A DNA stretch of 64,000 nt from Microcyclospora pomicola (taxonomy: Eukaryota > Ascomycota > Dothideomycetes > Capnodiales): NCBI GenBank assembly GCA_002786065.1, contig NHNY01000045.1, forward strand, positions 1 through 64,000. The letters run 5' to 3'. This document shows positions 51,070 through 61,790 of the stretch, piece after piece (position 1 is the stretch's first letter; the number at the start of each line of letters is the position of its first letter). The notes beneath the pieces are model-generated. The model worked only from the letters and a program-made list of their open reading frames with translations. It was not told where the DNA came from and did no database searches. The position numbers and the translations under genes were made by a program.

Positions 51070-51966
51070 TCAAATCCCGAACGATCCCAACACCCCGCGT
51101 ATGTTCGGACCTACGTTAGCCATCCGCGCAGCCATCATACCATTTCCCGATGTGGGTACGCTGCCCATCGCTGAACCGTTCCGTGGCGCCGACGTGGTAA
51201 GCAGCGCCTGCATTTCCTCGGCCCGAGAACGCAAAGCCGCAAGCGAGTGACGGAGCCGTGCCAGCAGCCGCATGTCACGCTCGTACGCCATCTTGCCATA
51301 GTCGTGCAGGACCTCCATGAGGTACCGGAGCTTCTTGCGACTGAAGGCTGAGCATCCCTCGTCGGTGATGGCCTTGATGCGGGCCCGAGCATCGCGTACA
51401 GCGTTGTTCTCCTCCGCCGTACCGATGGAGATCTGTAAGTCGAACTCGTGGCTTTTGCCAACATGGAGAGTTGGGGTCCAGTTGACGAGTCGTGCATCAG
51501 AGACACAAGCCCAGGTCACCCGGAGATGCAGGTTGAGCCCGTAGGTGTCGAGGTTGAAGTGGTTACAGGTGTAGTAGATGGGAGCAGCTTCCTTGCGGAT
51601 CTGTGAACAGACCTGCAGCAGTGCTGGTGGTCGATGGTCCGGTGAGCACTCATTCATCGTGATCACAGCGACGGGCCGGCGGAGCAAGGCCAGTTCGTAA
51701 ATGGAGTTGCGCAACTCTGGTGGTAGTGAAAGAAACCCGCTTTTCCCATTGTTGCTATTGTTTTTCTGTCGTAATCGAGGACTGGCGCGGCAGGGGGTGA
51801 GGTAGTTCCTGGTCCGTGGTATGTATGATCGTCCGGTGTTGATCGCCACCTGCTGCGACTTCACTCGCTTGGCAGATGGTTCTTCGGCGGCATCTAGACC
51901 GAACCTGCGTTTGCTTCGTGTATGCATGTCGACGATGTGCTGTGGATGATATTGCAAGTTCGGCAT
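51070..51966 (-). CDS. 2EXR/F-box-like domain protein
   Basis: Protein of 298 residues, intronless, ATG at 51966; a second in-frame ATG 39 bases downstream (MHTRSKRRFG) is also possible. The N-terminus is basic and disordered with an RSKRR cluster. The domain begins at FLSLPPELRNSIYELAL (about 78-94) and continues ALLQVCSQIRKEAAPIYYTCNHF, the hallmark of the large fungal family of F-box-like/2EXR proteins. C-terminal helices follow. Such proteins are numerous and lineage-expanded in Dothideomycetes; a role in ubiquitin ligase complexes is assumed from the F-box resemblance and not shown. Confidence 0.75.
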   Translation of the reverse strand: MPNLQYHPQHIVDMHTRSKRRFGLDAAEEPSAKRVKSQQVAINTGRSYIPRTRNYLTPCRASPRLRQKNNSNNGKSGFLSLPPELRNSIYELALLRRPVAVITMNECSPDHRPPALLQVCSQIRKEAAPIYYTCNHFNLDTYGLNLHLRVTWACVSDARLVNWTPTLHVGKSHEFDLQISIGTAEENNAVRDARARIKAITDEGCSAFSRKKLRYLMEVLHDYGKMAYERDMRLLARLRHSLAALRSRAEEMQALLTTSAPRNGSAMGSVPTSGNGMMAARMANVGPNIRGVLGSFGI

Positions 51967-53411
51967 GTTATGGGTCCCGTAGTACTGGTGAGGGAATGCT
52001 GCTGTAGATATGGTCCAAGAACCTGACAGGTCGAGGACGGTGAAGACAGAAGTGCCGCAGCAGAGGGTAGATGGATGATCGGTCTATTTCCCACGTCACA
52101 TGGTGTGACCAAGGGCACATATCGGGCAATTCACTCGACACACGCTCCTTTCGGAGTTCTGACCTCGTCTTCACCTTTCCGTCCTCGACTGGCGACCGCA
52201 AATCACAAATGCTCCGGCCCCGTCACCGCCGCAGGCCCGACATGGGCTCGGGGATGCCTGCAATGCATGCAGGGAGACCCTGCCGACCGCCCGGACGTCC
52301 AGGACCTTCACACTCGCTGCATTATTTGACGCGCAGTACATCACTGCAGCCCCCCATGATACTTTCCGCCCCCATCGCCCGGAGCTGCATTTCGACGGTC
52401 TTGGTTGGTGCTGGTGGAGGTCTTGCAGATCTTCGTGTGGTGTACACCTGGACTCGTTGCGTCTCCTCCCAGAGCATGGCAGTGCATGGTCGTCTGTCTG
52501 ACTCAAATCTCACCTCCGATCCGCAACTCTATGAGCCGCGACATCTAAAGGATTAACGTGGCTGCCTCAGCTCATTAGCCGGCCGTCTGGTCTGGATCGT
52601 CTCGGAATTGCGGCAAAAACAATATGGCTTGCTGTCCGCTGTCCGCACTCCCAATCCCCGGCTGCAGCAGTCTGGACAAATTCCCTAATGCGACTTTCGG
52701 AGTCTATACGGTGCCAGCCGGAGATTGGGGGCCGAATATGGGACGATCACTTGCATGCCTTTGCAATAGTCCGACGAAGATCACCGACACTTTCGAGATA
52801 TGCTGCAGCCTCCTGCGGCTTGCAAGCAGGGAAACTTATGCATTCTTGTAGCGGTGCTCACGAGGGGGTCACCCATTCATAATTCGCATGCATGATGCGG
52901 GCAGCACGGGCACTTTTTGCTATGAATGCCGAAGAAACAACCTATCTCTGAAGTTCGCTGTGGCTATGTGACATCGGCGAACAGCACCAGGGTACCCTCA
53001 TGCCGGCGCATTTCCTTGCGCGACATGGACATGGTACATATCCTAGGTACTGTCGAACCCGGACTTACGACGATGCCGCTCGCGCGCTGTAGCCACCACA
53101 ACCACCGCATTCCTACAGTGGTATTAAGCCTCCCAAACAGCCGATCCGTCGCTGAACCACCTTTAATAGCCACCTTTCGACCTGCGTGACTTGGGGACTT
53201 GACATGTTGAGGGAGCACAACATGAGCCCACACGTCGCCGATCATGCCGCAGTGGGTGACCTCGTCGAAGTCACCCACTGCGGCTCGTCGATTTCCCTCG
53301 ACCACCATCACGAAGTGTACCCTGCGATCCACACCACGCCTTTCCCATGTATTTTATGCCCTAGGGACCCACACATACCGGAGAGCATCCCATCACGTCC
53401 CACCCAGCCTC
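51967..53411. other. Intergenic, 1.4 kb, with a perfect inverted repeat
   Basis: Between the 2EXR start and the BOL2 stop. Apart from the hairpin at 53246-53284 nothing is recognised. Confidence 0.45.
53246..53284. repeat. Perfect 15-bp inverted repeat with 9-nt spacer
   Basis: The arm GCCGCAGTGGGTGAC (53246-53260) and its exact reverse complement (53270-53284) flank ctcgtcgaa. It lies 128 bases beyond the BOL2 stop in the direction of BOL2 transcription, so it could fold in that transcript's 3' end. Confidence 0.85.
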
Positions 53412-54135: not shown

Positions 54136-55568
54136 ATGACCTCGCCGGCGGTCATGGCGCCATACAGCAGGGCTGTCGTGGACGCGATGCGTAAACTGTC
54201 AGTAGTACTCACTTAGCTAGCATCAATGACGAGTCGCAAAGAATATGGTTGACTGATTTTCGATCAATCTAGATATCCCGAAGCCTTAGCGGACAAGAGC
54301 TTCGATAACACTGGACGTATGTTCAGCTGAACCATACGGGAGTGTCCCAAAAGTGCAATATTGACGCCACCCATAGTACTTCTCGAGTCCCCTTTCGCTC
54401 CAGCACGACGACAAAAAAACTCGGTCTTGCTCACGGTAGACCTCACCAGAGCAGTGGCCGATGAAGCAATCAGACGCAAGGACTCGATCATTGTCGCCTA
54501 CCGTATGTTCCATTTTGAGACAAAACATGATGCGCTGGAGCCAATGCCTGACAGGACATGAAGCGTAGATCCGATCATCTTTCGCGGGCTGAAAAGTCTG
54601 ACGCTGAAGGATACGCAACAGCAGAGTCTGCTGAGGTTGGCAGCCGAGGGGATTAGTGTGAGACGACGTCCCGGCATGTGGGAATGAGATGCAGTAGACT
54701 GACAAGTGTGTAGGTGTATTGTCCGCACACGGCTATCGATTGTGCACAAGGAGGGCTGGGAGATTGGCTCGCGGATATTGTGACTGGCGAACCTTCAGAA
54801 TCCACTTCAGGATCAGATATGGACTCTGCTACTGAGGACTCTGCTACTGAGGACTCTGCTCAGCGTTTTCCTGATGGGACAGAACCGAAACAGGATGCAG
54901 CAAATTCCACCGGCCAAAGCCGACCGACCCACTTACTACAACATCACCCATCACAGCTCTCCCTTCAAAACAAAGCATTCAGTCTGGGCGCGAAAAAGCA
55001 CCAACGCAAACCCATCGTCCCCACGAAAGTCGAAGGCCATTCCCACGGCGGCGGCATGGGTCGTATCGTGCGTTTTGCTGCTCCCGTGCCCCTGACCGAG
55101 ATCATCGATCGCATCGGACTCGGCCTCGGCAACCCAAAGGGCTTTCCGATTGCCATCCCACAAGGCAAAACTGCTGAGGACATGATGATCTCGAGCATCG
55201 CCCTCTGCGCCGGGAGTGGCGGCCACCTATTCGCCGAGGCCGAAAAGCATGGCGAGGACGTCGATCTGTACTTCACCGGCGAATTGTCGCATCACGAGGC
55301 CTTGGCGGCGATCGAGAAGGGGAAATGTGTGATCTGTCTGTTCCATTCGAACACGGAACGTGGGTTCTTGCACACTGTGTTGAAGGCCCAATTGAAACAT
55401 GCAATCGGAGAGGAATGGGAACGGATCAGAGCAGAGGAACTTGAGGAAGAAGGGTCGAGTGCGGAATCGCGAGAGGCCCTGAGCGACGACACTGTTGAGG
55501 TGCATGTCAGTGAGGTGGATCGTGATCCGTATGGCATCATGGTGAGCAAGACGAGGGCGCAGGGCTAG
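54136..55568 (+). CDS. NIF3: NIF3 family protein
   Basis: Five exons: 54136 (or 54154)-54197, 54273-54316, 54377-54502, 54569-54657 and 54714-55568, giving 391 or 385 residues. Two in-frame ATGs are 18 bases apart; the second (MAPYSRAVVDAMRKL) fits the usual family start. The joints produce YPEALADKSFDNTGLLLESP, DSIIVAYHPIIFRGLKSL and AAEGISVYCPHTAIDCAQGG, all family signatures. The C-terminal half has FTGELSHHEALAAI and CLFHSNTERGFL. The conserved His/Asp/Glu residues form a di-metal site; the biochemical role is unsettled. An unusual acidic insert (about 120-150) contains SATEDSATEDSA, encoded by 15-base tandem copies. Confidence 0.93.
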
Positions 55569-57846: not shown

Positions 57847-59785
57847 ATGCTCTCCAGCCAACTCCTGTCGCTCGGGTTCGCCACCCTGTGCGCCGCGGCC
57901 ACAACGCTCGACAGCGGACTGATCATCGACACGACCACCGCGGTGAAATGCAGCCGACCCACGAAAGAGAACGACCGCGTCGCAGTCCACTACAGAGGCA
58001 CGCTCGAAAGCGACGGCAGCGAGTTCGACGAGTCGTACAAGCGCGGCAGCCCTTTCATGTTCGTCCTCGGCGCAGGACGCGTGATCAAGGGATGGGACCT
58101 TGGGTTGCTGGACATGTGTCCGGGAGAAGCGAGGAACTTGACCATTCCTCCTGATCTCGCGTATGGGAGGAACGGAGCGGGGTTCATACCGCCTGACAGC
58201 ACGTTGGTGTTCGAGACATTGCTGGTTGACATTGTGGGGGTGAAGCAGGAGTTTGTTTCAACTATCGTGGCTACGTCTACGTCGACATCTGCGCCGACGT
58301 CTGCGCCTACACCTACGCTTGCGCCTACAATTGCGCCTACACCAGCGATAAACGCGACCATGACCACGTCTGCGAATGCGACAGCTGTGGAATCAGAGGC
58401 GATGTTGTCCATTGCTACAGCTCCATCGATGCCAGATGACCCTGATGTCAAAGATATGGAGCAGGCATCGGATGCTGACTTGCAGAAGGAGTTGGAATCT
58501 GAGATGATGGAGGAGTTGGATCCTGAAATGATGGAGGGATTGGATCCTAACATGGCGCAGGGGTCGGAGTCTGATATGACGGAAGAACTGCAGACTGATG
58601 TGACCGAGGAGGAGGATACCGATGTGATGGAAGAGGTGGATACTGACATAATAGAGGACCTAGATCCTGGCATGAAGGAGGATTTGGACCCTGACATGAA
58701 GAATATTGGAGACATCAACAGCATCGAAGATCTGAAGGCTATCGAAGATGTGGAAGGTGACGAGGGTGGAGCGATATTCGAGCCGCCACCACCACCACCC
58801 TTGGCTGGACACGATGGCCCAAAACACCCTGGCAAGCAAGCAGAGTGCCATCTCCTCGGACCGTTCGCCTTGATTGTGCAAGCTGCTTTGGGCGGCATGG
58901 CCTTGTTGACTCTGGTCTGGAAGCGATACCGTGAGACACCCAAGCGGCCGTGGAAGATCTTCTTCTTCGACGTCAGCAAGCAAGTACTCGGTTCGATGCT
59001 TACTCATGTTCTAAACTTGGCCATGAGCATGCTCTCCAGTGTGGCAATCGTCAATCAGATCAGCAAAGCAGCCGCCGATGACCCCGACAGGTTCATGAGC
59101 GCAGATGGTCGGATGCCAAACCCTTGCTCATACTACCTGCTCAACTTGGGGATTGATGTAAGCCCAAAGTTGCAATGATGATTCGCGTTATACTGATCCA
59201 TTCTCTCAGACGACTATTGGTATTCCAGTGTTGTATGTGCTTCTCAAGGTTCTACATGCGCTCGCGTTGCGAACTCCTCTGGCTCGTCCAGCTCAATCGA
59301 TCAAGTCTGGCAACTATGGTCAACCTCCATACAATACCACCTGGTGGCTCAAGCAGCTCCTCATCTACTTCATCGGCCTGGTAGGCATGAAGCTCTTCGT
59401 CTTCTTTCTCTTCCAGGCCCTGCCATGGCTTCCTTGGGTGGGTGATTGGGCGTTGCGATGGACCAAAGGCAACGAAGCGCTGGAGGTGACGTTCGCCATG
59501 TTCATCTTCCCGCTCGCCATGAACGGCATCCAATACTGGGTCATCGACAACTTCATCATGGAGAAGAAGGGCAAGGACGAGAGCAAAGGCGATTATGCCG
59601 CGGTGCACGACGACGAGGACGACGTCTACCGCGTTGGTGGAGATGCTGGGGCCGAATTTGACGATGAAGACGATCACGATAAGAATGGCCCTCTGACGGA
59701 GGTGAATCCGACGCCGATCCCGGTTTATGACAACGATGGCAGCAGAGCGGGATCCGCCAAAGATTCAGACAGGAAGCTGCGATAG
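57847..59785 (+). CDS. FKBP prolyl isomerase fused to a STIMATE/TMEM110-type membrane protein
   Basis: Protein of 628 residues from two exons, 57847-59157 and 59210-59785. Parts in order: signal peptide (MLSSQLLSLGFATLCAAA); FKBP domain (about 45-131) with VHYRGTLESDGSEFDESY, AGRVIKGWDLGL and IPPDLAYG, most like the secretory-pathway FKBP2 type; a Thr/Ala/Pro-rich linker; nine acidic octads (217-288); a polyproline run; then, from C334, the membrane domain of the STIMATE/YPL162C family (CHLLGPFALIVQAALGG, NPCSYYLLNLGIDTTIGIPV, WWLKQLLIYFIGLVGMKL, FPLAMNGIQYWVIDNFIM). The FKBP, octads and first membrane segments share one exon with no stop, so the fusion is not a splicing artefact. Human STIMATE acts at ER-plasma membrane contacts in calcium entry. 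An acidic tail ends the protein. Confidence 0.88.
58495..58710 (+). repeat. Nine tandem 24-bp units coding acidic octads
   Basis: 216 bases, exactly 9 x 24, inside the FKBP-STIMATE gene. Unit products include ESEMMEEL, DPEMMEGL, ESDMTEEL, QTDVTEEE, DTDVMEEV, DTDIIEDL and DPGMKEDL; consensus D-[PT]-[DE]-[MV]-x-E-[ED]-[LV]. The unit length is kept although the sequences have diverged. Confidence 0.85.
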
Positions 59786-60469: not shown

Positions 60470-61790
60470 ATGCCGTCCTCCCACTCCATCAGCTCGCAGC
60501 TGCAGATCGATGTAAGTCGCCCCGCGACAATGCTGTGTACGGAGACACATCCGAAGAGAGGAATCCGCTCTGTGTGTGAATGAGATGTCGTCGGTTGACC
60601 AGCCTGCGGACTTCTAGAGAGGCGATGACAATGACTCGGACTCGACGCTCGGCGACGATCGATATACGTACGATTGCCTAGGTCTCTTTCGTCTGCATAC
60701 ATGGGATGGGACGCTGACGTGTTCGATAGCATTACTACATCGCTATCTCCTTCGGTCTTGGACTTTCGACATGAGAATGGGAGACGGTATCACTCGTTTC
60801 AGGAGGATGCGTACTTCCTGCCGAATGATGTGAGTGTGGAGTGATGCAATCGTGGTTGTGTGCAGATGGTTGACTGTTCGATCAGGAAGTCGAAGCGGCA
60901 CGTCTAGGTATTGCCTGTCATGCTGTGACGAGTGTGCATCTGTTACTGACGTCTCCTAGACCTCCAGCATCACACCTGGAAGCTGACATTCGACGGCGGA
61001 TTCGGTCGCGTTCCTCTAGATGAGAAGATCAAGACGGTCTTGGACGTAGGCACCGGGACCGGCATCTGGGCTATGGAGCTCGCCGAAGCGTTCCCACACA
61101 TGAAGGTCTACGGCACAGACTTATCACCCATCCAGCCCAATTTCGTGCCCGCCAACTGTCAGTTCATCGTCGATAACGCCGAGCTGGACTGGGCGTTTGA
61201 CTACAAATTCGACTACATTCACGCCCGCATGCTGACGATGGGCATGCACGACTGGCCGCGGTTCTTCGAGCAATGCTGGACCCACCTCGAGCCGGGTGGC
61301 TGGCTCGAAACGCTGGAGGTGCTCTTCCCTGCCACGCGCATGGAGGATGATGACACGCCCGTCTCGCCATTCATGAAGTGGGGCGAATATTGCTACGAAG
61401 CGGCGAAGAAGGCAGGCATCGATGCCCGAGCGTCCGAAACGTTCACCGAGACGTTGCAGTCCCAAGGCTTCGTCAACGTTGATCGGGTCGATGTGCAATG
61501 GCCGATCCGACCTTGGGCTAAGGGGCAGAAAGCCAAGGTCATGGGCCGGCTGGTGTATGAAAATACCAAGCAGGCGGTGCCTGCGGTGTGTCTGGCCCTG
61601 TTCACCGGACAGCTTGGCTGGACCAAGGCGCAGGCCGACGCGTTCATCGAGGTAGCATTGAAGGATGTGGATGATAAGAACAAGCACTTCTACTGGCACA
61701 TGTGAGTTGGCTGAACTCTCCCACTGGCACGAGACTAATAAATACTGATCTTTGAATAGGGTGCTGCACCGGGCACAGAAACCGGCGTAG
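60470..61790 (+). CDS. SAM-dependent methyltransferase (LaeA-like / TAM domain)
   Basis: Protein of 328 residues from six exons: 60470-60511, 60618-60667, 60730-60829, 60886-60907, 60960-61701 and 61760-61790. The joints rebuild the usual N-terminus of this family: DSTLGDDRYTITTSLSPS, NGRRYHSFQEDAYFLPND and EVEAARLDLQHHTWKLTFDG. The SAM-binding motif I is VLDVGTGTGIWAMELAE; FPHMKVYGTDLSPIQP follows with the acidic post-I residue, and HDWPRFFEQCWTHLEPGGW is the later motif. Members include the secondary-metabolism regulator LaeA and many small-molecule methyltransferases; this one cannot be placed more exactly. The exon structure is rich in short exons, but every joint is in frame. Confidence 0.88.

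Follow-up and report, generated by a model that had tools for sequence, protein, structure and literature searches.

A conserved FKBP-STIMATE fusion protein of dothideomycete fungi, predicted to hold a prolyl isomerase on a lumenal membrane face

We analysed the first 64,000 nucleotides of contig NHNY01000045.1 of Microcyclospora pomicola (hereafter the window) and describe in it a plus-strand gene (57847..59785) whose single product of 628 residues joins an FK506-binding (FKBP) prolyl isomerase domain, a linker and a STIMATE-family membrane module. This FKBP-STIMATE fusion is a real, conserved domain architecture, and apparently an undescribed one. From its sequence, we consider it probable that the protein is an FKBP2-type isomerase held on the lumenal side by STIMATE, produced by a fusion made once, with the vacuolar membrane as its likeliest address, and that it is not a regulator of the animal STIM/Orai type.

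The gene belongs to a 23.4-Mb genome in 58 contigs. Spliced translation bore out the two-exon structure proposed in an earlier sequence-only reading: exon 1 (57847..59157) is a single open frame of 1311 nt, or 437 codons, from the ATG to a GT donor, its other two frames containing 23 and 17 stops, and exon 2 (59210..59785, stop codon included) encodes the remaining membrane module and the tail. The 52-nt intron between them (59158..59209; GT-AG, GTAAGC to CTCTCAG) is predicted from its letters; its removal rebuilds a conserved motif by joining LLNLGID to TTIGIP, and the residues at the splice (D437, T438 and T439) are at least 97% identical across 236 relatives. A Pfam search recovered both of the domains that the same reading had assigned to one polypeptide: FKBP_C (PF00254) at residues 36-126 (57952..58224; 109.1 bits, E 1.4e-31), above its curated cut-off, and STIMATE (PF12400) at residues 427-554 (143.5 bits against a curated cut-off of 22, E 5.7e-42). 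Ahead of the FKBP domain, residues 1-18 (MLSSQLLSLGFATLCAAA; 57847..57900) form a plausible signal peptide, recognised by hydropathy and inspection with a guessed cleavage site; N-terminal hydrophobicity is 1.99, just below a crude rule of 2.0 that 104 of 120 relatives pass. The linker (residues 137-333; 58255..58845) is rich in serine, threonine and proline and then acidic, with a net charge of -43 and with glycosylation sequons at residues 169 and 177, and the acidic repeats noticed earlier within it form a tandem array (58487..58699; Tandem Repeats Finder, 24-nt unit, 8.9 copies, 69% matches). The first part of the membrane module, from C334 to D437 (58846..59157), comprises transmembrane segments TM1 and TM2 and the start of TM3, as judged by homology to stand-alone STIMATE proteins. 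The protein terminates in RKLR, after the membrane module, and has no KDEL-type ending.

A search with the whole protein returned 372 proteins at E ≤0.001 among 7996 candidates scored, and the counts of fused relatives and the taxonomic range given here are those of the best 120 of the 372, the range thus being a minimum. Both Pfam domains are present in all 120, and in a profile search FKBP precedes STIMATE in 121 of 121 proteins, that is, the listed relatives and the window protein. This joined order rules out an assembly accident, the source of the joint that the earlier reading had kept in play, and it is stronger evidence than the small probability that the 193-codon linker is open by chance at its own base composition (p ~8e-5). 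When 120 pooled proteins were scanned (74 from the fused list, 24 from the STIMATE list and 22 from the FKBP list), the totals of 98 STIMATE and 96 FKBP_C matches were those expected if all 74 fused-list members hold both domains. The linker varies between species: by the profile search it measures 193 residues in the window against 27-222 (median 59) in the joined proteins, and aspartate plus glutamate make up a fraction of 0.47 of its most acidic 40 residues both in the window and in P0021, against a median of 0.23 in the relatives. Looked-up taxonomy places two of the fused sources, Acrodontium and Chrysothrix, in the Mycosphaerellales and the Arthoniomycetes (clade dothideomyceta), respectively; the remaining named fungal sources are, we assume, Dothideomycetes. 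A search with the STIMATE part (best 120 of 1332 matches, lengths held to about 430 residues, which excludes full-length fused proteins) listed four short or partial fused proteins, the others having no FKBP label; the named STIMATE-alone proteins among these listed matches presumably belong to the Chaetothyriales (Eurotiomycetes) and the Sordariomycetes, Macrophomina excepted. Two fused records, P0001 and P0002, are filed under the cork oak Quercus suber and probably stem from fungi contaminating that assembly; one matches the window protein at 79% identity across 53% of its length, the other at 58% across all of it. The Meristemomyces frigidus record P0004 (813 aa), which is fused and also labelled as FtsJ methyltransferase (PF01728), is probably a merged gene model.

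The fused isomerase is likely to be active and to bind FK506, because the FKBP12-type pocket residues, which serve both functions, are conserved in the window protein and, position by position, in 110-120 of the 120 relatives. Two cysteines, C35 at the edge of FKBP_C and C91 inside it, which we take to be the FKBP2 pair, are found in 119 and 120 of 120 fused proteins and in 70 and 73 of 74 soluble relatives. The genome yields four FKBP matches, among which we take L001 to be the acidic nuclear type, L004 the split small cytosolic type and L003, whose frame ends in SKEL, a secretory FKBP2; the fusion thus exists beside a soluble FKBP2 of the endoplasmic reticulum (ER) type. Likewise, eight name-matched species carry both a fused and a soluble FKBP2, and all eight soluble forms end in EL. 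Overall, an EL C-terminus is present in 59 of 74 soluble relatives versus 1 of 120 fused proteins.

The mean number of lysines and arginines per STIMATE loop is 7.2 in loop 1 (after TM1), 2.2 in loop 2, 2.6 in loop 3 and 1.1 in loop 4, which, together with five helices, points to a lumenal N-terminus and a cytosolic tail. A structure model of the fused relative P0059 has five long helical regions and an FKBP domain of high confidence. Together with this model, the FKBP2 cysteine pair and the loop 1 charge support, as a prediction, the lumenal placement of the FKBP domain already suggested by the sequence-only reading. With such a topology C334 and C427 would both be lumenal-sided, and they may pair with each other. 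A model of STIMATE only gave no convincing fold match when compared with solved structures. We propose that a second FKBP2-type prolyl isomerase with a signal peptide became fused in front of a STIMATE-family protein, whose five-span module would begin on the lumenal side and end in a cytosolic tail. The isomerase would then be suspended from the lumenal membrane face by the flexible, serine-, threonine- and proline-rich, acidic linker. The membrane module would replace the KDEL-type signal that retains soluble FKBP2, and would determine the address, most likely the vacuolar membrane reached via the ER, with ER residence second; the isomerase would act on, or hold, prolyl peptides belonging either to clients in the lumen or the membrane or to partners of STIMATE itself. 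A more specific version, to which we give somewhat less than even credence, is that Dothideomycetes and Arthoniomycetes built once a vacuolar isomerase of the FK506 type on the lumenal face, with STIMATE as a scaffold for vacuolar maturation or repair. To our knowledge, no FKBP has previously been placed in the vacuolar compartment.

The yeast protein Ypl162c is, we assume, a member of the STIMATE family. It was picked as exclusively vacuolar-rim, according to the accessible portion of the source (PMC8176713), and human STIMATE appears in the available parts of three papers as an ER protein with a polybasic C-terminal tail that interacts with STIM1 (PMC7765462, PMC7889955, PMC8944985). That interaction (PMC7889955, PMC8944985, same portions) and membership of the STIMATE Pfam family speak for the idea, put forward in the sequence-only reading, of a calcium-entry regulator: a STIM-like partner at ER-plasma-membrane junctions coupling lumenal folding or calcium sensing to calcium entry, for which weak calcium binding by the acidic lumenal octads would be conceivable. 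This idea did not hold up well. Besides the vacuolar location of the yeast member, the fused tails are acidic rather than polybasic like the mammalian one (PMC8944985, in the part accessible), their net charge ranging from -18 to -5 with a median of -12 in 116 fused relatives and being -11 in the window, and six lysines or arginines in 12 residues are reached by only 8 of 117 fused tails, the window not among them. Tails from the STIMATE-alone list are similar (median net charge -12; 9 of 115). The acidic linker is not general among the relatives, as its median composition indicates, and the Orai-1 and SOAR profiles have no match in the genome, yet have none in any control genome either. The calcium-entry reading is unlikely, and we leave the contact-site model a slight chance.

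Tail motifs also bear on the address. After TM5, the tail carries YAAV, a YxxPhi-type motif read from the sequence (residues 566-569; 59594..59605). Counting the window, 75 of 118 fused tails have such a motif within their first 25 residues, where shuffles lead one to expect 7.9, a comparison that overstates the enrichment because related sequences are not independent; in the STIMATE-search set they occur in 8 of 116 tails (one fused piece, P0121, included), with 1.4 expected in shuffles. An acidic dileucine motif was found in 25 of 116 tails of the STIMATE-search set (P0121-P0237) versus 0 of 118 fused tails; a swap of sorting signals between acidic dileucine and YxxPhi is possible. A further tail motif, NPT (LTEVNPTP here, 59690-59719), is present in 68 of 118 fused tails versus 2 of 116 in the STIMATE-search set. 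The weightiest alternative is an ER-resident fusion whose FKBP domain would serve newly made secretory and membrane proteins, much as membrane-anchored human FKBP11 probably does near the translocon. We doubt it, albeit less than the other alternatives, given that EL endings are usual in soluble relatives and nearly absent from fused proteins, that Ypl162c lies on the vacuole rim and that a soluble ER-type FKBP2 is already encoded in the genome. As a first guess, by judgement, we rank the vacuolar membrane, at slightly better than even, above the ER, which stays clearly below even.

A quick tree built from 56 STIMATE domains has a branch that parts 33 fused and 3 short records from 20 stand-alone ones (Shimodaira-Hasegawa-like approximate likelihood-ratio test, SH-aLRT, 96), a split that makes one fusion event likely; the two genes were probably joined a single time, within dothideomyceta. 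In a second tree, built from 67 FKBP domains, 21 Dothideomycete soluble FKBP2 are set off by one branch (100/99) from the fused form, and a single clade for the fused FKBP domains is not rejected (approximately unbiased test, p-AU 0.171). This tree has few columns, and both P0106, on a long branch, and the Pezizomycete FKBP2 P0308, which falls among the fused, are out of place.

Several observations weigh against a once-made, lumenally oriented, vacuolar isomerase. The putative cytosolic loop 3 is barely more basic than the lumenal loop 2, and the fused model has a mean pLDDT (predicted local distance difference test) of 75.4, with part of the linker below 50. The predicted vacuolar address hangs on a short motif and a single, distantly related protein of yeast, and YxxPhi is absent from 43 of 118 fused tails, including those of five of the six Botryosphaeriales rows examined, of Bathelium and of Chrysothrix. 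The fused FKBP domains need three changes in the best FKBP tree, and none of 200 bootstrap trees unites them; without a single fused clade, repeated capture of the FKBP domain is formally possible. In a 237-row FastTree rooted on a Trichoderma protein, the smallest clade that takes in all fused rows is supported at 57, which slightly lowered our confidence, and this clade includes 13 records without an FKBP match. These 13 records, like the many Met codons of the window linker, could also indicate that STIMATE is produced alone, from an internal start or a separate transcript, the joined frame being minor or a by-product. Nevertheless, at least six of them (P0122, P0125, P0193, P0207, P0224 and P0231) keep, ahead of the linker, residues resembling the final FKBP strand, and a starting Met is missing from six of the 13; most are probably cut gene models or contig ends, including the Macrophomina record P0122. 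Moreover, 61 of the 121 joined proteins have a linker free of Met when it is counted from three residues past the FKBP match, which speaks against internal initiation as a conserved source of STIMATE on its own. We regard this two-product explanation as the least probable of those considered.

The fused protein shares with FKBP2/FKBP13 (yeast Fpr2) a predicted N-terminal signal peptide, a single FKBP domain, the cysteine pair and the full pocket, but FKBP2 is soluble and usually has an xxEL end, whereas the fusion adds the linker and a five-helix membrane module. With the STIMATE/TMEM110 family (PF12400), annotated in fungi as 'vacuolar membrane protein', it shares the entire module, many residues of which are at least 97% identical across fused and stand-alone proteins; stand-alone records have no FKBP and place about 48 residues (median) ahead of the module. 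The family is found in both animals and fungi, and we know of no role described for it outside STIM signalling. Human FKBP11 has a single membrane span. Like the fusion, it has a membrane-held lumenal FKBP domain (title of 9n9j), but it differs in lacking a STIMATE module and in having a translocon partner. Neurospora FKBP22/NcFKBP3 likewise combines a secretory FKBP with a charged C-terminal extra part, as far as the accessible text of PMC1618848 goes; unlike the fusion it has an HNEL end and no membrane module, and the proteins P0263, P0287 and P0322, FKBP22-like by reading, had no STIMATE match in the profile search. The available portion of that survey, which appeared in 2006 and covers sixteen fungal isomerase sets, mentions no Dothideomycete; the tables there give one 14.6 kDa ER FKBP for each of its two Aspergillus species (PMC1618848). 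Full-text searches of an open-licence library turned up no description of the FKBP-STIMATE architecture, in keeping with the earlier suspicion that it was undescribed. Databases do hold fused proteins with both Pfam labels, some named 'FK506-binding protein 2', so that the architecture is visible there though apparently unstudied. It is a clear evolutionary novelty in domain architecture, its location and role being predicted, and may be a trait marking the dothideomyceta clade. The conserved joint is a natural clue that STIMATE works beside a lumenal prolyl isomerase, with its own N-terminus fixed in the lumen; topology, location and partners are directly testable in a tractable black yeast.

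The FKBP-STIMATE gene lies between two plus-strand frames, a DUF34/NIF3 protein upstream (54714-55568) and a methyltransferase downstream (60950-61705). A minus-strand open frame (51070-52083) has a weak match to the 2EXR family (E 2.9e-07).
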